From the NCBI RefSeq assembly GCF_024710485.1, contig NZ_JANJUQ010000022.1:1-51576 (forward strand): a stretch of DNA of 51,576 bases. The letters run 5' to 3'. Positions 17,239 through 51,523 of this stretch are shown here, one piece after another. Position 1 is the first letter of the stretch, and every line of letters starts with the position of its first letter. The translations under genes and the position numbers were made by a program. The notes under the pieces were generated by a model that did not search any database, had not been told where the DNA came from, and saw nothing but the letters and a program-made list of their open reading frames with translations. This stretch comes from Flavobacterium sp. GTDB lineage: Bacteria > Bacteroidota > Bacteroidia > Flavobacteriales > Flavobacteriaceae.

Positions 17239-17252
17239 TAATTTTGTTTAAC
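17239..17252 (+). promoter_or_regulatory. Promoter and GTTTAAC box of the MerR gene
   Basis: TAATTTTG (17239-17246) fits TAnnTTTG and runs directly into GTTTAAC (17246-17252). The crtI promoter has the matching arrangement TATTTTTG-GTTAAAC, in which the box is the same site read from the other strand. This suggests the regulator binds its own promoter. Confidence 0.55.
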
Positions 17253-17267
17253 TAAATCAAATAAAAG

Positions 17268-18164
17268 ATGAACAATATTAAAAGTGTTTTTAGCATTAAA
17301 GACTTGGAGAACTTATCCGGTATAAAAGCACACACCATCAGAATATGGGAAAAAAGGTATAATGTACTCGAGCCTATGAGAACAGAAACTAATATCCGAA
17401 TGTATGATTTAGAGAATCTTCAAAAGCTGCTCAACATCACCCTTTTACACAATCATGGCTACAAAATATCAAAAATCTCTAAACTTTCAGAGGATAGAAT
17501 CCCGGAGTTGGTAAATGAAATCATTTCTGAAAAAAGCGCCAAACATCACGCCATCAGTTCTTTTAAAATAGCTATGATGAATTTTGATCAGGCGTTGTTT
17601 TTTAACACGTACAGCAAGCTGCTTGTTGAAAAATCTTTCAGAGATGTTTTTTATGAGGTCTTTATTCCGTTAATCCAAGAAATAGGATTGTTATGGCAAA
17701 CTAATACCATCAGTCCGGCACACGAACATTTTATTACCTACCTTATTAAGCAAAAAATACTCACCAATACTGAGGTAGTTCAGTCCCAAGAACCTACCAG
17801 ATCAGATAAGGTTTTTGTACTATACTTGCCTATGAATGAAATTCACGAATTGGGATTGATGTATTTAAACTACGAAATTCTAAACCATGGTTACAAAACT
17901 ATCTATTTAGGTGAGAGTGTACCGACTGACAGTTTGAAAGATTTGAAGAAACATTTTGACAATATTGTTTACTTGTGTTATTCCACAGTAGAACCTACTA
18001 AATCCGAAATAAATCCCTATATAAAAGAACTACAAACTGAAATCATGGACGATTCTTCCCAATTATGGTTGATTGGTCGTATGATAGAACATGTTGACCC
18101 AAGACTTTTATCGGAAAAAACCATTACCTTTAACAGCATTAAAGAATTAGTAGAATTTATCTAG
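17268..18164 (+). CDS. MerR-family regulator with cobalamin-binding domain (CarH-like)
   Basis: This 298-residue protein has three parts. Residues 5-75 are a MerR winged helix (FSIKDLENLSGIKAHTIRIWEKRY). About 90-170 is a helical-bundle cap. About 178-298 is a B12-binding Rossmann domain. The cap keeps W143-x9-E153-H154, which in CarH packs against the adenosyl group of adenosylcobalamin. The Rossmann domain keeps E191-x-H193-x-x-G196, whose histidine is the lower cobalt ligand. Residue 144, after the tryptophan, is Gln; in Thermus CarH I recall a His here that takes part after photolysis. The gene lies directly before crtI. It probably represses carotenoid genes in the dark, possibly as a light sensor. 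Confidence 0.88.
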   Translation: MNNIKSVFSIKDLENLSGIKAHTIRIWEKRYNVLEPMRTETNIRMYDLENLQKLLNITLLHNHGYKISKISKLSEDRIPELVNEIISEKSAKHHAISSFKIAMMNFDQALFFNTYSKLLVEKSFRDVFYEVFIPLIQEIGLLWQTNTISPAHEHFITYLIKQKILTNTEVVQSQEPTRSDKVFVLYLPMNEIHELGLMYLNYEILNHGYKTIYLGESVPTDSLKDLKKHFDNIVYLCYSTVEPTKSEINPYIKELQTEIMDDSSQLWLIGRMIEHVDPRLLSEKTITFNSIKELVEFI

Positions 18165-18180
18165 ACAAATATTTTTTTAT

Positions 18181-18210
18181 TGTTTAACTTTTTTCTATTT
18201 TTGTTAAACA
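18181..18210 (+). promoter_or_regulatory. Probable operator over the crtIBZ promoter (TGTTTAAC-N14-GTTAAACA)
   Basis: A perfect 8-bp inverted repeat (18181-18188 and 18203-18210) has arm centres 22 bp apart, two helical turns. The -7 element TATTTTTG (18196-18203) lies between the arms. The crtI ATG follows at 18213, so the mRNA would be nearly leaderless. No good -33 box is visible. Confidence 0.7.
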
Positions 18211-18212
18211 AT

Positions 18213-19670
18213 ATGAGAAAGAAAATCAAAATAATCGGTTCCGGATTCTCGTCGCTTGCCGCGGCTTGTTATCTTGCCCAACAAGGCAACGAAGTAGTAG
18301 TGTATGAAAAAAACAGTACTATAGGCGGAAGAGCTCGTCAGCTCAAAAAAGAGGGTTTCACTTTTGACATCGGTCCAACATGGTATTGGATGCCGGATGT
18401 TTTTGAACGATTTTTTGCCGACTTCGGTAAAAAGCCTTCAGATTACTACCATCTTATCAAACTCAATCCTGCTTATCAAGTGTACTTTGGCGTCAAAGAC
18501 TTTGTTACAATAGCGGATAATTTGCCGGAAATCGTAACGGTCTTCGAATCCATCGAAAAAGGTAGCGGTGCGAAACTGACCGAATTTATGAAAGAAGCCC
18601 AAAGCAATTATGATATTGCAATTAAAGATTTGGTCTATCGTCCCGGTGTTTCACCTCTGGAATTAGTGACTTTGGAGACTGCCAAAAAAGTGAATCAGTT
18701 TTTCGGAAATATTTCCAAAGACATCCGTCGCCGATTCAAGAATACCAAACTCATCCAAATATTAGAATTTCCGGTTTTATTTTTAGGAGCTAAACCTTCA
18801 GACACACCGTCATTTTACAGTTTTATGAACTTTGCCGATTTTGGCTTAGGTACTTGGCATCCCAAAAACGGAATGTATAGTGTGATAGTAGCTATGGAAA
18901 GCTTGGCTAAAGAATTAGGTGTAACATTTCAACTCAATGCCAATGTTGATAAAATTATTGTCAATGACGGTAAAGCCAGTGCCATAGTAGTAAACGGTGA
19001 AACTATTAACGGAGATGTGATTTTAAGCGGTGCCGATTATCATCACAGTGAAACGTTGTTAGAACCAAAATACCGTGCTTATTCTGAAAAATATTGGGAT
19101 AAGAAAACCTTTGCGCCTTCGTCTCTTCTTTTTTATGTAGGCTTTGACAAAAAAATTGAAAACGTTGAACATCACTCTCTGTTCTTTGATGTCGACTTTG
19201 ATACACACGCAGCCGCCATTTACGACACACCGCAATGGCCTAAAGAACCACTTTTTTACGCCAGCTTTCCTTCAAAAACAGATGACAATGCTGCACCGGA
19301 AGGGAAAGAAGCCGGTATATTTTTAATTCCGTTGGCACCAGGCTTGAAGGATACAGCAGAGTTACGCAATCTTTATTTCGAAAAAATAATTACGCGCTTT
19401 GAAAAATTAACACAACAAACTGTAAAAGAAAACATTATCTTTAGAGAATCTTTTTGTGTCAATGACTTCATCAAAGATTACAATTCGTACAAAGGGAATG
19501 CTTACGGGTTAGCCAACACCCTATTGCAAACCGCTTTTTTAAGACCTAAATTGAAAAGTAAAAAAGTTAAAAATCTATTTTTTACCGGTCAATTAACTGT
19601 CCCAGGTCCCGGAGTGCCACCATCGCTAATTTCGGGGAAATTGGTAGCTGAACTTATTGAAAAAAACTAA
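18213..19670 (+). CDS. crtI: Phytoene desaturase (CrtI)
   Basis: CrtI is an FAD-dependent enzyme that adds double bonds to phytoene to give lycopene. The 485-residue protein begins with the dinucleotide-binding IIGSGFSSLAAACYLAQQG and VYEKNSTIGGRA, and has FDIGPTWYWMPDVFE. It ends with the bacterial phytoene dehydrogenase signature region LFFTGQLTVPGPGVPPSLISGKLVAELI. The frame can be extended to 18180, but that would translate the operator, so I use the ATG at 18213. crtB starts 12 nt after the stop, giving a crtI-crtB-crtZ operon under the repeat-containing promoter. Confidence 0.94.
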   Translation: MRKKIKIIGSGFSSLAAACYLAQQGNEVVVYEKNSTIGGRARQLKKEGFTFDIGPTWYWMPDVFERFFADFGKKPSDYYHLIKLNPAYQVYFGVKDFVTIADNLPEIVTVFESIEKGSGAKLTEFMKEAQSNYDIAIKDLVYRPGVSPLELVTLETAKKVNQFFGNISKDIRRRFKNTKLIQILEFPVLFLGAKPSDTPSFYSFMNFADFGLGTWHPKNGMYSVIVAMESLAKELGVTFQLNANVDKIIVNDGKASAIVVNGETINGDVILSGADYHHSETLLEPKYRAYSEKYWDKKTFAPSSLLFYVGFDKKIENVEHHSLFFDVDFDTHAAAIYDTPQWPKEPLFYASFPSKTDDNAAPEGKEAGIFLIPLAPGLKDTAELRNLYFEKIITRFEKLTQQTVKENIIFRESFCVNDFIKDYNSYKGNAYGLANTLLQTAFLRPKLKSKKVKNLFFTGQLTVPGPGVPPSLISGKLVAELIEKN

Positions 19671-19682
19671 AAATATCATGCT

Positions 19683-20522
19683 ATGAAATCAATCTTTGAC
19701 ACTGTATCTTTTGATTGCAGCAAGAATGTAACCAAGTCTTACAGCACTTCTTTTTCTGCTGCTGTAAAAATGTTGGCGCCAAGCATTCGCCAGGACATTT
19801 ACAACATTTACGGATTTGTTCGCTTTGCCGATGAAATTGTTGATACTTTTCACGATTACAACAAGGAACATCTTTTTGAGAGATTTGAAAAAGATTTGGC
19901 TGATGCTTTAGAAAACAAAATCAGCTTGAATCCTATTTTAAATTCTTTTCAACACACAGTACATAAGTATCAAATTCCGAATACATTGATTGCTGCTTTT
20001 ATGAAAAGTATGAAAATGGATTTGCACAAAAAAGAATACCAAACCTATGACGAATACCATGAGTATATTTATGGCTCTGCCGATGTGGTTGGCTTGATGT
20101 GTTTAAAAGTATTCGTTAATGGCGATGATAAAAAATTTGCTGAATTAGAACATTCTGCAATGCGTTTAGGTTCGGCTTTCCAAAAAGTGAATTTCTTGCG
20201 TGACTTGAAAGCTGATTTCGAAGATTTGAGCAGAACCTATTTCCCGAACACCGATTTATCACGATTGGACGAACAATCCAAAAACGAAATCATCAAGGAA
20301 ATTGAAACTGATTTTCAAGTAGGTTTTGAAGGGATTTTAAAACTACCTTTAGAAGCTAAATTCGGTGTTTACACAGCTTTTGTTTACTACAAAAAGTTGC
20401 TTTCTAAATTGAAGAAAACGCCTTCTATGGAAATCAAAAATACTCGAATCCGAGTACCGGATTACGAGAAAATTGGTTTGTTGGCCAAGTGTTATGTGAA
20501 TTATCGTTTAAATTTAATCTAA
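19683..20522 (+). CDS. crtB: Phytoene synthase (CrtB)
   Basis: CrtB condenses two geranylgeranyl diphosphates head-to-head to make phytoene, the first committed carotenoid step. The 279-residue helical protein has both aspartate-rich motifs of the squalene/phytoene synthase family: DEIVD in FVRFADEIVDTF, and the second in NFLRDLKADFEDLSRTYFP. The early SYSTSF motif and the GSADVVGLMCLKVF segment are also typical. It lies 12 nt after crtI and 4 nt before crtZ. Squalene synthase is a possible alternative from family membership alone, but the operon makes phytoene synthase much more likely. Confidence 0.94.
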   Translation: MKSIFDTVSFDCSKNVTKSYSTSFSAAVKMLAPSIRQDIYNIYGFVRFADEIVDTFHDYNKEHLFERFEKDLADALENKISLNPILNSFQHTVHKYQIPNTLIAAFMKSMKMDLHKKEYQTYDEYHEYIYGSADVVGLMCLKVFVNGDDKKFAELEHSAMRLGSAFQKVNFLRDLKADFEDLSRTYFPNTDLSRLDEQSKNEIIKEIETDFQVGFEGILKLPLEAKFGVYTAFVYYKKLLSKLKKTPSMEIKNTRIRVPDYEKIGLLAKCYVNYRLNLI

Positions 20523-20526
20523 AATC

Positions 20527-20970
20527 ATGTTACTACATATAGTTGTTTTTTTAATTACTTTTTGTGGGATGGAATTTATGGCTTGGTTTAGTCACAAGTA
20601 CATCATGCACGGCTTTTTATGGAACTTACACGCCGATCATCACAAAAAAGACCACGATTCTTGGTTTGAGCGCAATGATGCTTTTTTTATATTTTATGCC
20701 GTTGTTAGTGTGGGATTCTTTTTATTGTGGCAAAATGATATTTTAGAAATCGGATTGGCTATAGGATTGGGCATTTTTGCCTACGGATTAGCTTATTTTA
20801 TGGTGCATGACATTTTTATACACCAACGCTTTAAGTTGTTCCGAAATGCCAATAATCGTTACGCCAGAGCGGTAAGAAGAGCTCACAAAATGCACCACAA
20901 ACACATCGGTAAAGAAGACGGAGAGTGTTTCGGGATGCTGATTGTTCCGCTCAAATATTTCAAAAATTAA
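20527..20970 (+). CDS. crtZ: Beta-carotene hydroxylase (CrtZ)
   Basis: CrtZ is a membrane di-iron hydroxylase that adds hydroxyl groups to C3 and C3' of beta-carotene, giving zeaxanthin. The 147-residue protein has the expected histidine clusters: HKYIMHG, HADHHKKDH, HDIFIHQR and HKMHHKH. About three hydrophobic helices lie between them. It is the last gene of the crtI-crtB-crtZ operon and is followed by a strong terminator. A lycopene cyclase, needed to supply its substrate, is not in this cluster and must be encoded elsewhere. Confidence 0.93.
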   Translation: MLLHIVVFLITFCGMEFMAWFSHKYIMHGFLWNLHADHHKKDHDSWFERNDAFFIFYAVVSVGFFLLWQNDILEIGLAIGLGIFAYGLAYFMVHDIFIHQRFKLFRNANNRYARAVRRAHKMHHKHIGKEDGECFGMLIVPLKYFKN

Positions 20971-24689: not shown

Positions 24690-26642
24690 TTACAACACAA
24701 AGTTCAACCCTATTTTAAAATTCCTTCCTCGGGTGGAATACCCAATATTTTCTACAAAAGTTTCGTTGAAAATATTAGTTGCTGTGGCAAAAACACTCAT
24801 TCGTCCTTTCATTAATTCGTATTTGACTAAGCAATTTACCAACTGATACGAATCTAATACCACATCGGTTACTCCAAAAGTATTGCCATCGAAAAACATA
24901 TCTTTTCGGACGTCAAAATATTGATAGTTTACATTGAACAAGGTTCTGCTGTTGGGCTGATAATCCAAACTTGCATTGGCTTTGTGTTTCGGTATTAATC
25001 GATCTAAAGCCTTATCCACTTGTGTGAACGTATAGTTAGCGTTCAATTTTAATTGAGAAGTCAACTCATAAGACACTTCCGTTTCAATCCCTTTGGCTTT
25101 ATTTGTTCCGTTGATATTTACGTAAAACGATTCAAAAGTATCCGGATTGTAAAAGAAGTCAATGGAATTATTTTGGTCACGGTAAAACGCCACCGTTTCC
25201 CATCTTAACTTATTGGACATCAATTGCGTTTCAAAACCTACTTCAGCAGTGGCATTTTTCTCCGGAGTTAAAGCAGCGTTACCATATTCCGAGTACAATT
25301 GGTACAAACTCGGCGTAATGTAAGCCGTACTGTAAGAGGCTACTAACTTCAAAGGAAAAGCCGTTTTAAAATTGTAGGACGGATTAAAATTGTACACAAA
25401 ATTATTGCCGTAAGCACTGTGGTTATTCAATCGAGCTCCGGCATTGAGGTTCAACCCGAAATCAAAATGATACACCAAAGTGGAATACCCATCGATAATA
25501 TTAAATTTGGTCGATTGGTTCTCGATATTCCCGAAAGGTGTTTTACTCAACATATCGTTGAACTGGTAATTCACTCCCAAAATCACGGCAAAATCTTTGT
25601 TGACATTGTACTTGTTCACTCCGTCAATCACGACATTTCTGGATTCATAAACCGAATAATCCGTTGTACCCGAAAAACTATTGAACTCTTTGTAATCGCG
25701 TACAATTTTGTTGAAACCTGAATTCAGGATAAACTCGCCTTTTCGGTATTGATATTTAGGCGAAAAACCAAAGCGCACTTGTTCAGAGGTAGTCGTGTTG
25801 ATGGCCGTATCGTTAAAACCGGTATTGTCAAAAGTCAAATCGTAACCGTTTTTCAATCGGTCGTAATTTCCGAAAAAGTTTAGGCTTAATTTCTCAGTCG
25901 CTTTGAAGCCGAATTTAGCAATGGCATTCTGACGGGAAAATCGATCGTCTTCATAGGCAACCGATTCGTTAGGAGGCGCTATCTGCGACATATTTCCGGT
26001 TTCCGTACTGTTGATTCCGGCAAAATAATTCACTTTTTTGTAGTTACCGTTTACCGAAATACCTTGGTTAAAATCCTGACCGTTGTATTTTTTATCGTTC
26101 GAAGTATTGTTGGAACCAATATTCAGATAAGCGTTTCCTTCGATTTCTTTTTTCGACCCTTTTTTCAGGGTAATGTTGATTACACCCGTTGCCGCGCCTG
26201 TTCCGTATAAGGTACTGGCAGCGCCTTTCATCACTTCGATGCTTTCCACCTGTTCTACCGGCAGCAAACGCAAATCATATTCTAAACTGATGCCGGAAGC
26301 GTCAGTAACCGGAATACCGTCAATTAAGATTAATACTTGTCGGTTTTTACCACCGCGAATATAGTAGCCGAGGTTTTTACCGTTAGCCGATTGGTTACCG
26401 TTGATTTCCACACCGGTAACTTGCGACAAAACAGTAGCCAGACTTTGACCGGTTTTGTTCGCTAAATCTTTAGCCGAGATAACTTCAATGATTTTTCCCG
26501 ATTTTTCTTTGCTTTGTGCAAATTTGGTATCGGAGATAACCACTTCTTTCAATGAATTCACTTTTACGGAATCCTTTTCTTGCGCCCAAGCACAAGTTAC
26601 TACCAATGCGAAGAATGCACTGATTTTACTGTTTTTTTTCAT
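24690..26642 (-). CDS. btuB: TonB-dependent vitamin B12 receptor (BtuB-like)
   Basis: This 650-residue outer-membrane receptor has a signal peptide (ALVVTCAWAQ) and an N-terminal plug with the TonB-box-like region (VVISDTKFAQSKEKSGKIIEVI). Plug landmarks are GVEINGNQSANGKNLGYYIRGGKNRQVLILIDGIPV and the ESIEVMKGAASTLYGTGAATGVINI motif. A beta-barrel follows and ends in an aromatic strand (RNFKIGLNFVL). The plug sequence and 650-residue length fit cobalamin receptors. The assignment is strengthened by the cobalamin riboswitch in its leader and by the divergent B12-type ABC transporter. Confidence 0.92.
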   Translation of the reverse strand: MKKNSKISAFFALVVTCAWAQEKDSVKVNSLKEVVISDTKFAQSKEKSGKIIEVISAKDLANKTGQSLATVLSQVTGVEINGNQSANGKNLGYYIRGGKNRQVLILIDGIPVTDASGISLEYDLRLLPVEQVESIEVMKGAASTLYGTGAATGVINITLKKGSKKEIEGNAYLNIGSNNTSNDKKYNGQDFNQGISVNGNYKKVNYFAGINSTETGNMSQIAPPNESVAYEDDRFSRQNAIAKFGFKATEKLSLNFFGNYDRLKNGYDLTFDNTGFNDTAINTTTSEQVRFGFSPKYQYRKGEFILNSGFNKIVRDYKEFNSFSGTTDYSVYESRNVVIDGVNKYNVNKDFAVILGVNYQFNDMLSKTPFGNIENQSTKFNIIDGYSTLVYHFDFGLNLNAGARLNNHSAYGNNFVYNFNPSYNFKTAFPLKLVASYSTAYITPSLYQLYSEYGNAALTPEKNATAEVGFETQLMSNKLRWETVAFYRDQNNSIDFFYNPDTFESFYVNINGTNKAKGIETEVSYELTSQLKLNANYTFTQVDKALDRLIPKHKANASLDYQPNSRTLFNVNYQYFDVRKDMFFDGNTFGVTDVVLDSYQLVNCLVKYELMKGRMSVFATATNIFNETFVENIGYSTRGRNFKIGLNFVL

Positions 26643-26810
26643 TTTAAATTAAACACTGTCAATAAAATTAAACTATCATTTGCAGCAAGACTGAAAACTC
26701 AGAAACGCCAGGAAACTAATTTTTTAATTTTACTGAATTACTAATGTTGGGAGAAAAGCATAGAATTTACCCATACCCAAACCTTTTTTCCCGAAAGTTT
26801 GTTACTCAAT

Positions 26811-27024
26811 GAATTAGGCAGGTCTCCTGGCTTGCGTCTTGTTGTTGACCTTCCCGTTTTGAATATTAGCTATTAAATTTTTGATATTTAAAATCTAAAA
26901 TCATGAACAGTGGTGTTGCAGATAACAACAAGCTTGATAGCTTACAGTTGCGGGAACAGCTTTGGATTTTAACCAAATTCCCTTTTAATGCGATTTTGAA
27001 CTTCAAAATGCGCAACCATAATTC
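26811..27024 (-). ncRNA. Cobalamin riboswitch upstream of btuB
   Basis: Read on the minus strand, the element starts with GAATTA, which pairs with TAATTC at its 3' end to form P1. The conserved core is present: GGGAA, then GGTTAAAATCC, then CTGTTCCCGCAACTGTAA, and finally the B12 box AAGCCAGGAGACCTGCCT (26816-26833). This is a class I cobalamin riboswitch. The btuB ATG lies about 170 nt downstream; that leader (26643-26810) shows no strong terminator with a T run, so control may act on translation. B12 binding would switch btuB off. Confidence 0.95.
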
Positions 27025-27029
27025 GGGTG

Positions 27030-27037
27030 CAAAAGTA
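27030..27037 (-). promoter_or_regulatory. Promoter -7 element of the btuB riboswitch transcript (TACTTTTG)
   Basis: This TAnnTTTG match lies six nt before the P1 strand of the riboswitch, so the transcript would start almost exactly at the aptamer. btuB is therefore probably transcribed independently of the microprotein gene upstream. Confidence 0.6.
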
Positions 27038-27074
27038 ATAGAAATAATGCTATTTTAACCCTAACAAGCCGAAT

Positions 27075-27188
27075 TTATTCTTCTTTTTTCTTAGAAAACT
27101 TGACAATCAGCCAAATAAATCCAACTAAAAAATGCAACAGGATAATTCCGCCAACGAGGTACATAAAAGTATTAGAATCGTCTCTCAT
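27075..27188 (-). CDS. 37-residue single-pass membrane microprotein
   Basis: This is a short frame from ATG at 27188 to TAA at 27075. The polar start MRDDSNTF leads into one hydrophobic helix of about 22 residues (from YLVGGIILLHFLVGF to WLIVKF) and a strongly charged end (SKKKEE). That is a well-formed single-pass topology with the positive end inside. It lies between the btuB riboswitch and divergent btuF. No homology is recognised, and no good TAnnTTTG promoter is visible (the nearest is TAACATTTG, one base too long). Function is unknown; a partner of the B12 transporter is only a guess. Confidence 0.6.
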   Translation of the reverse strand: MRDDSNTFMYLVGGIILLHFLVGFIWLIVKFSKKKEE

Positions 27189-27272
27189 GGTTTTTTCTGT
27201 AAAATTAAGCAGATAAAAATCTTGGTTTAGCATCAAATGTTACAAGAGTCAAAATATTCAGCAACAATCTTC

Positions 27273-27280
27273 TATTTTTG
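27273..27280 (+). promoter_or_regulatory. btuF promoter -7 element (TATTTTTG)
   Basis: This TAnnTTTG match lies 15 nt before the btuF ATG. The leader is too short to hold a riboswitch, so btuFCD is not under direct riboswitch control. Confidence 0.6.
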
Positions 27281-27294
27281 CAAAAAATAATTGA

Positions 27295-28431
27295 ATGAAA
27301 ACCTATTATCGTTTGTTGTTCGTTTTGGCACTAAGTGTCGTATTCGCACAATGCAAAAAAGAGACTGTAACTACTGAGCGAATCGATTCCCAAAATACCA
27401 TTCGCCACGCCAAAGGTTTTTCCATTCGAAATTACGAGGGCTACACTGTTGTCACTGTGCGAAATCCTTGGCCTAAAGCGACAAAAACCTATACTTACAT
27501 CTTAAAAGAAAAAAACGGTATAGTTCCGGACAGCCTTTCACAAAACCCAATTATTGCTATTCCGATAAAAAGTATCGTAGTAACCTCAACGACGCACGTT
27601 CCATCTTTAGAAATGTTGAAAAAGGAAAATACCTTAATTGGTTTTCCTAATCTCGATTACATTTCTTCGGAAAAAGTGAGAGCCAGAATAGAAGCCGGAA
27701 AAGTGAAAGAATTGGGCATGAATCAAAATTTAAACACTGAAGTACTGCTCAATTTACAACCCGATGTGATTATCGGTTATGGCATCGACAACAACAATCC
27801 AACCTTAGATAATTTGCAAAAAAGCGGTTTAAAAGTCATGCTTAACGGCGATTGGAACGAAGAAACACCGCTGGGTAAAGCCGAATGGATCAAGTTTTTC
27901 GGCGCTTTGTACGGGCAACAAAAAAAGGCAGAGGAAATCTTCAGCAAAATAGAAAAAGAGTATTTAAAAACCATAAAGATTGCCCAAAGCGCTGGGGAGA
28001 CACCAACTATTTTAGCCGGAGATATGTTCGAAGACCGTTGGTATTTACCCAAAGGGAACAGCTGGGGAAGCTTACTTCTAAAAGAAGCCAAAGGTCATTA
28101 CTTATGGTCTGAAACTACCGGAACCGGCAGTTTGTCGCTTTCTCTTGAAACGGTATTGGAAAAAGCCAAAAATGCCGACATTTGGATTACATCGGGACAA
28201 TTTGCCTCTTTGAAAGAGATGACCGCTGCCAATCCGCATTACCGTCAATTTAAAGCCTTTCAAAATAAAAATGTATATTCGTTCAGCGCTAGAAAAGGAA
28301 AAACCGGTGGTACTTTGTACTATGAATTGGCTCCAAATCGTCCGGATATTATTTTGAAAGACATTGTCAAAATTTTACACCCGGAATTATTGCCGAGTTA
28401 CCAACCTTTCTTTTTCGAGAAATTACAATAA
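27295..28431 (+). CDS. btuF: Cobalamin-type ABC transporter substrate-binding lipoprotein (BtuF-like)
   Basis: This 378-residue lipoprotein (VVFAQC lipobox, Cys20) has a type III periplasmic binding-protein fold. Hallmarks are SIVVTSTTHVPSLEMLKKENTLIGF, LLNLQPDVIIGYG, and later GDMFEDRWYLPKGNSWGSLLLKEAKG and DIWITSGQFASL. It is anchored on the periplasmic side and delivers ligand to the FecCD permease encoded next. Iron-siderophore binding is possible from the family alone. Cobalamin is favoured because the divergent receptor gene carries a B12 riboswitch. The stop codon is two bases from the likely TTG start of the permease gene. Confidence 0.85.
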   Translation: MKTYYRLLFVLALSVVFAQCKKETVTTERIDSQNTIRHAKGFSIRNYEGYTVVTVRNPWPKATKTYTYILKEKNGIVPDSLSQNPIIAIPIKSIVVTSTTHVPSLEMLKKENTLIGFPNLDYISSEKVRARIEAGKVKELGMNQNLNTEVLLNLQPDVIIGYGIDNNNPTLDNLQKSGLKVMLNGDWNEETPLGKAEWIKFFGALYGQQKKAEEIFSKIEKEYLKTIKIAQSAGETPTILAGDMFEDRWYLPKGNSWGSLLLKEAKGHYLWSETTGTGSLSLSLETVLEKAKNADIWITSGQFASLKEMTAANPHYRQFKAFQNKNVYSFSARKGKTGGTLYYELAPNRPDIILKDIVKILHPELLPSYQPFFFEKLQ

Positions 28432-51354: not shown

Positions 51355-51467
51355 GGGGCGTGTCCTTTCAGGCCGGGCTATCCGCTGTATCTTTTACTGT
51401 TATAACTTATATCTAAACCAATGCCTTAATCAAAACAGTAAAAGGATGCCGCTCCTATCCCTCACGC
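51355..51467 (+). repeat. Structured dispersed-repeat-like element, about 113 nt
   Basis: GCGTG (51358-51362) pairs with CACGC (51463-51467) to close the element. Inside, CTTTTACTGTT (51391-51401) pairs perfectly over 11 bp with AACAGTAAAAG (51434-51444). The flanks GGGCTATCCGC and GGATGCCGC, then CTATCCCTCACGC, recall a repeat I know from many Flavobacterium genomes. It may be a structured RNA such as Flavo-1, but I cannot confirm this. No coding frame is seen. Confidence 0.6.
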
Positions 51468-51523
51468 GAAGCATTGCCTTTACAACAAACCTTTTTATCT
51501 ATTGGATTTGATATTAAAAGGAG

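Follow-up and report, generated by a model that had tools for sequence, protein, structure and literature searches.

A CarH-like regulator and a shared palindrome suggest wide light control of gene expression in a Flavobacterium

We analysed a 51,576-nucleotide stretch of Flavobacterium sp. DNA (contig NZ_JANJUQ010000022.1 of assembly GCF_024710485.1; hereafter the window) that holds a carH-like gene, carH for short, directly in front of a carotenoid gene cluster. An original prediction, made from the letters alone, had read its product as a B12-dependent photoreceptor of the CarH type that puts pigment under light control. The features on which the argument turns are listed with their basis.

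17239..17252, + strand: TAATTTTGTTTAAC, a -7-type element abutting an operator half-site, upstream of carH
17244-17275: two-mismatch palindrome spanning the carH start
17268..18164, + strand: carH-like gene, 298 aa (open reading frame (ORF) list; Pfam domains, predicted fold)
17694..17729, + strand: codons of W143-x9-E153-H154 (translation, PDB-sequence match, locus alignment, MAFFT)
17697-17699, + strand: codon of Q144, equivalent to His132 of Thermus CarH (TtCarH) (MAFFT)
17838..17855, + strand: codons of E191-x-H193-xx-G196, the lower axial His motif (translation, alignments)
18075..18080, + strand: codons of G270-R271, a half-kept GG motif (alignments)
18180..18211, no strand: palindrome TTGTTTAAC-N14-GTTAAACAA, predicted operator in the carH-crtI gap (locus comparison, genome pattern search)
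18196..18203, + strand: TATTTTTG, a -7-type promoter element within the crtI palindrome, at offset 16
18213..19670, + strand: crtI-like desaturase with ATG start (NCBIfam NF058655, 731.5 bits, cut-off 640)
19683..20522, + strand: crtB-like phytoene synthase (ORF list, Pfam, NCBIfam)
20527..20970, + strand: fatty-acid-hydroxylase-family gene, probably crtZ, a name taken from family and place (Pfam)

Pfam places a MerR DNA-binding domain at residues 8-73 of the carH product and a four-helix B12-binding cap (PF02607) at residues 99-163, and the predicted model, by structure match, adds a Rossmann-type domain at about residues 178-298. This is the domain order of class I LitR, and the model matches the CarH fold. 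The top matches among PDB sequences are TtCarH/LitR (3whp and 5c8d, E about 1e-13), with residues 127-254 aligned to TtCarH by HMMER, and the protein is the sole homologue found in its own genome. All seven residues named in the original prediction (W143, Q144, E153, H154, E191, H193 and G196) stand in the ORF translation, and both HMMER against PDB sequences and MAFFT set W143, E153-H154 and E191-x-H193-xx-G196 on the Thermus motifs. Aligned by MAFFT to a Thermus carH reference gene taken from a plasmid record, W143 pairs with W131, Q144 with H132, E153 with E141, H154 with H142, E191 with E175, H193 with H177 and G196 with G180. The protein thus shares with TtCarH, itself a class I LitR, its domain order, predicted fold, complete Wx9EH (W143, E153, H154), ExHxxG and RxWE-RY helix; unlike TtCarH, it has Gln144 for His132, Leu141 for Glu129 and only half of the GG motif.

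The Gln at residue 144, where Thermus has His, was rightly singled out: its equivalent, TtCarH His132, is the cobalt ligand of the light state (PMC10442372; papers cited by PMC number are drawn on in excerpt throughout). A His after the Trp is present in many, not all, CarH homologues (PMC9304148). Gln144 is not peculiar to this one protein, however. A genome scan yielded 80 loci which, with the query, made 81 aligned sequences, and all seven motif residues are invariant in 81/81 and in 120/120 further close homologues; because the close relatives are 64-95% identical, part of this invariance is simple relatedness. Among 120 Algoriphagus-like proteins, about 38% identical, W, Q, EH, E and H are again invariant and G196 is replaced by Ser. 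For Thermus-like homologues 120 matches were listed; in the 110 that reach 250 aa, Trp is followed by His (91), by Glu (14) or by one of Ala, Tyr and Gln (5), so that 19 have no His, and the equivalent of position 141 is Glu or Asp in 103.

Across the Bacteroidota, 63 of 296 genomes, own included, have a carH homologue. Of 71 matches outside the own genome we aligned 69; the two left out were a second copy and a match with a stop codon inside it. The window's own family accounts for 29: Gln follows the Trp in 28, with Gly in L145 (a 36%-identical copy), and 28 keep both Wx9EH and [ED]xH complete, all but L113, which has EQ. Of the other 40 loci, 29 have complete motifs; across the 40, Trp is followed by Gln in 10 and by Leu, Ile, Val or other residues in the rest. 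As none of the 69 aligned loci has His after Trp, lack of the light-state His characterises the sampled Bacteroidota rather than this organism. The lower axial His is lost in six of the 40 (L142, L147, L149, L152, L153, L156), so CarH-type motifs can decay. Three of the six genomes with such homologues hold two or three homologues.

The predicted operator TTGTTTAAC-N14-GTTAAACAA ends one base before the crtI ATG at 18213. Its conservation was examined in 80 loci, the window and 79 others; L009 was left out for its disrupted frame and L030, with no crtI downstream, was kept. The crtI-like gene directly follows carH in the window and in 79/80 loci, L030 being the exception. With up to three mismatches allowed, 48/80 loci have the pair TTGTTTAAC/TTGTTAAAC downstream of carH (shuffles: mean 0.39, maximum 2), and in 45 of these the arms are spaced by 21 or 22 bp. 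TAnnTTTGTTnA stands upstream of carH in 79/80 loci (shuffles: mean 1.0, maximum 4) and ends 17 bases before the ATG in 69. The flavobacterial -7 element is TAnnTTTG, and given the position of TAnnTTTGTTnA the half-site thus abuts a -7 element. That element has been printed as TTGNTANNTTTG (PMC3587595). By inspection, both palindrome arms hold TnnAC, the kind of core found in known CarH sites (nAnnTnnACAn); unlike the three 11-bp direct repeats of Thermus, the cores in the window's palindrome lie 21 bp apart (PMC8156234). We also tried the half-site plus -7 element as a genome-wide signal; it gave 5 matches against 5 for the reversed pattern and was dropped for the full palindrome.

Searching the 2.7-Mb own genome with TTGTTTAAY-N14-RTTAAACAA returned four exact and two one-mismatch sites, six in all, and none for the reversed pattern. 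They lie at crtI, at two photolyase loci, at two fasciclin-domain genes and at the junction of proteorhodopsin and blh (a retinal-forming dioxygenase), a divergent pair with the palindrome between them. The two photolyase loci hold three photolyase-family genes and carry the crtI element at the same 21-bp spacing, one beside a flavin reductase and cryptochrome-DASH and the other at an SRPBCC-SDR-photolyase operon. Six two-mismatch sites (at carH, tspO, folE, a TetR-like gene, a second time at proteorhodopsin/blh and a second time at one fasciclin gene) are weaker candidates, with no control at that level. At up to three mismatches the palindrome gives 40 matches against 64 for the reversed pattern; with no excess, three-mismatch matches were not used. 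Fasciclin-domain genes also adjoin carH in other Bacteroidota (L144, L151, L175 and L180), two of them confirmed.

We compared palindrome counts with the presence of carH across genomes at up to one mismatch, with the reversed pattern as control. Among carH+ genomes of the family, 27/28 hold the palindrome (107 sites; reversed 6), and among 12 carH- genomes, one of the genus and 11 more distant, a single site occurs in one. Within the genus, carH is present in 131 of 150 genomes, and here too the palindrome tracks the gene. The 61 carH+ genomes that are at least 99% complete have 228 sites (reversed 12), with at least one in 59; the 12 equally complete ones among all 19 carH- genomes have 4 sites (reversed 4), at most one per genome. 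The difference in site counts gives a Mann-Whitney p of about 1e-7, not corrected for phylogeny. The carH+ counts include any site at crtI, and subtracting one per genome leaves 167 of 228.

Site context was examined for 75 of the 108 palindromes of the first of these comparisons, which fall in 73 stretches. In none of these (0/73) does the site fall within an ORF of 60 aa or more, and a gene start lies within 300 bp in 70. A homologue of the own-genome target set adjoins the site in 48/73 stretches and not in 25: fasciclin (13), crtI (10), TetR-like (8), SDR (6), SRPBCC (4), flavin reductase (4), proteorhodopsin (3), blh (3), carH (3), cryptochrome-DASH (2) and folE (1). In the 84 promoters of these stretches, TAnnTTTG clusters at offsets -5 (18), 15-16 (15) and 36 (5) relative to the palindrome. 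In five stretches (L240, L263, L268, L272, L282) a TetR-like gene and an NAD-epimerase-like gene face each other across the palindrome, and in four (L242, L264, L267, L289) a protein starting like MENKKPDNVVY recurs nearby.

Proteorhodopsin genes bear the same element. Of 249 family genomes, sampled at close to one per genus, a proteorhodopsin-like gene is present in 59, and we examined the 30 matches with loci, own included, from 30 genera. The palindrome stands upstream in 28/30 at up to three mismatches, in 25 at up to two and exactly in 7 (shuffles: mean 1.25, maximum 4), against 0/30 in the downstream stretch. The N14 spacer was always best when 13-15 were allowed, and in 14/30 loci TAnnTTTG begins at offset 15 or 16, as at crtI. 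In a Nonlabens strain, light raises the level of rhodopsin transcripts (PMC4831467). The regulation of Dokdonia proteorhodopsin has been stated as open, and strain PRO95 is reported to express its proteorhodopsin constitutively (PMC3587595).

The supply of cofactor bears on how these data are read, and two further features of the window belong here.

24690..26642, - strand: TonB-dependent receptor, best NCBIfam match BtuB (211 bits, below the cut-off of 599.7)
26800..27035, - strand: cobalamin riboswitch upstream of the BtuB-like gene (91.7 bits, gathering threshold 31.5)

Receptor and riboswitch lie within 9 kb of carH. Elsewhere, the own genome encodes a PduO-type adenosyltransferase and three PF02310 proteins over cut-off. 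Taken with the riboswitch and receptor, these make it likely that adenosylcobalamin (AdoCbl) is available in the cell. Positions 24690-28431 as a whole form a B12 uptake locus, with the riboswitch and receptor on the - strand and a divergent periplasmic-binding-protein gene on the + strand.

We consider it quite probable that carH encodes a CarH-type regulator, likely to bind AdoCbl in the dark, that represses carotenoid, photolyase, fasciclin and proteorhodopsin genes through TTGTTTAAY-N14-RTTAAACAA. The residues that stack on or coordinate AdoCbl in TtCarH are kept, the model has the CarH fold, no second homologue was found in its genome, the palindrome overlaps or adjoins a -7 element at many of these genes and it co-occurs with carH; from these we infer that the protein binds B12 and its operator and responds to light. 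The predicted dark state is an AdoCbl-bound oligomer that would span two half-sites, 21 bp or two turns from each other, across the -7 element and so block RNA polymerase there. Light would break the Co-C bond, the adenosyl group would leave and the oligomer would come apart, after which the regulon genes, carH included, would be expressed. Because Gln and mostly hydrophobic residues replace TtCarH His132 and Glu129, the light state would not be the bis-His cobalt of the Thermus type; the upper face is predicted to carry water or hydroxide, or else the invariant His154. In TtCarH the spectrum of the aquo/hydroxo type, seen in the H132A protein, is marked by 352 nm and the bis-His one of the wild type by 359 nm.

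As to scope, the presence of the same palindrome at photolyase and at proteorhodopsin genes strongly suggests that the regulon is under light control. The proposed light control of pigment stands in part: the motifs are real, conserved and coupled to crtI, but the predicted regulon is much wider than pigment. Since the crt palindrome also precedes photolyase and proteorhodopsin genes, the protein, by means of B12, likely turns on an entire light programme and not pigment alone. The broader proposal, on balance plausible, is that flavobacterial photoheterotrophy is run by B12: a Gln-variant CarH would repress proteorhodopsin, retinal synthesis, carotenoid and photolyase genes in the dark via one palindromic operator, light would release them by destroying AdoCbl, and cobalt would reach an end state unseen in Thermus CarH.

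Several observations weigh against this interpretation. The best NCBIfam match is the CarH equivalog NF052513, at 70.2 bits against a cut-off of 400. PF02310 was undetected in the protein at E up to 10; we rejected this absence as proof of lost B12 binding, and it says little because TtCarH also falls under the cut-off (24.3 against 32.1 bits). Of the full lower motif, ExHxxG-x41-SxT/V-x22-27-GG, ExHxxG is kept, SxT/V is not clearly kept, and one Gly of the GG pair remains (I269-G270-R271). Two alignments disagree as to which Gly this is, so R271 is at most a candidate substitute for the second. With the fold, Wx9EH and ExHxxG present but the full motif and the NCBI cut-off missed, we call the protein, which would work as CarH does, a variant of the CarH kind. 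Most light-exposed TtCarH with His132 changed to Ala is still tetrameric (PMC10442372), and losing the His could therefore mean losing the switch. On the genome side, 9/19 carH- genomes of the genus have at least one site (19 sites in all), a share that drops to 4/12 among those at least 99% complete; G438, 90% complete and with no carH found, has seven. Conversely, three carH+ genomes have no palindrome, G134 of the 28 and G327 and G370 of the 61; the carH copies of G134 and G327 are divergent (36 and 45% identical) and that of G370 is not. Among the 30 proteorhodopsin genomes examined, carH status is known for the own genome alone.

Some of these points would also fit a regulator that binds the palindrome and reports B12 supply, or works free of B12 like CarA of Myxococcus xanthus, with light entering otherwise. 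The half-lost GG motif, the missing light-state His, the B12 uptake genes and riboswitch close by and the loss of the lower His in six non-family homologues all lend themselves to this reading. We think it unlikely: in this protein and its orthologues Trp, EH and the lower His never vary, and photolyase, rhodopsin and carotenoid genes, not B12 genes, make up the putative targets. Like CarA, the protein joins a MerR to a B12-type domain at a crt cluster; unlike CarA, which has no Trp and is B12-independent, it has W143 and a complete Wx9EH (PMC9304148, PMC8156234). The same papers correct the original prediction in one respect, as CarA, said there to have no light role, acts in the light response of M. 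xanthus with no need for B12. Overall, that prediction is supported in part: its motifs and crtI coupling hold and light control is strongly suggested; its view of CarA does not hold, Gln144 is shared by the orthologues and the predicted regulon reaches beyond pigment.

An improbable alternative has a different transcription factor on the palindrome, with carH and the palindrome co-occurring as parts of one light programme that is kept or lost together. Palindrome binding by the carH product is a prediction, and a TetR-like gene adjoins 8/73 palindrome stretches; however, carH and crtI themselves bear the element in most loci, both arms have the TnnAC core seen in CarH sites (PMC8156234), and two of the three site-free carH+ genomes have divergent carH copies. 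It is very improbable that the protein is a class II LitR-like effector that has lost B12 binding and takes its light signal from a partner photoreceptor, for instance a LOV protein. Class II LitR of Pseudomonas (PplR, PmlR) does govern a similar set, photolyase (phrB), a cryptochrome-like gene (cryB) and folE, with a short LOV partner; unlike the carH product, which in the model keeps a complete Rossmann-type domain and has the lower His, class II LitR has lost that B12 domain and keeps the four-helix bundle alone (PMC9758184).

The CarH-type reading has parallels among known systems. In the Thermus plasmid record, too, carH adjoins carotenoid and photolyase genes; a proteorhodopsin as predicted target sets the window's system apart from TtCarH. 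Flavobacterial crt clusters of Nonlabens and Sediminicola likewise have a MerR gene before crtI, which the available excerpts name without cofactor, operator or regulon (PMC11855829, PMC4732338). A literature search found no report of CarH control in flavobacteria or over proteorhodopsin; its coverage of subscription journals was thin, so this is no proof of absence. With a predicted operator at 28/30 proteorhodopsin genes that is common to carH and crtI, the analysis offers a candidate regulator, cofactor and exact DNA site for their control. If true, light-driven energy capture would be tied to B12 supply. The clade-wide Gln also offers a natural test of whether the CarH switch needs His132 ligation.

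Two minor observations concern the surroundings of carH. Loci that do not belong to the window's family often have a gene for an ECF-type sigma factor between carH and crtI (L119, L123 and L141, with similar short ORFs at other non-flavobacterial loci); Pfam confirms three of them, and the window and its close relatives have none. At the far end of the window, Rfam matches a Flavo-1 RNA at 51367-51472 on the - strand with 52.7 bits.
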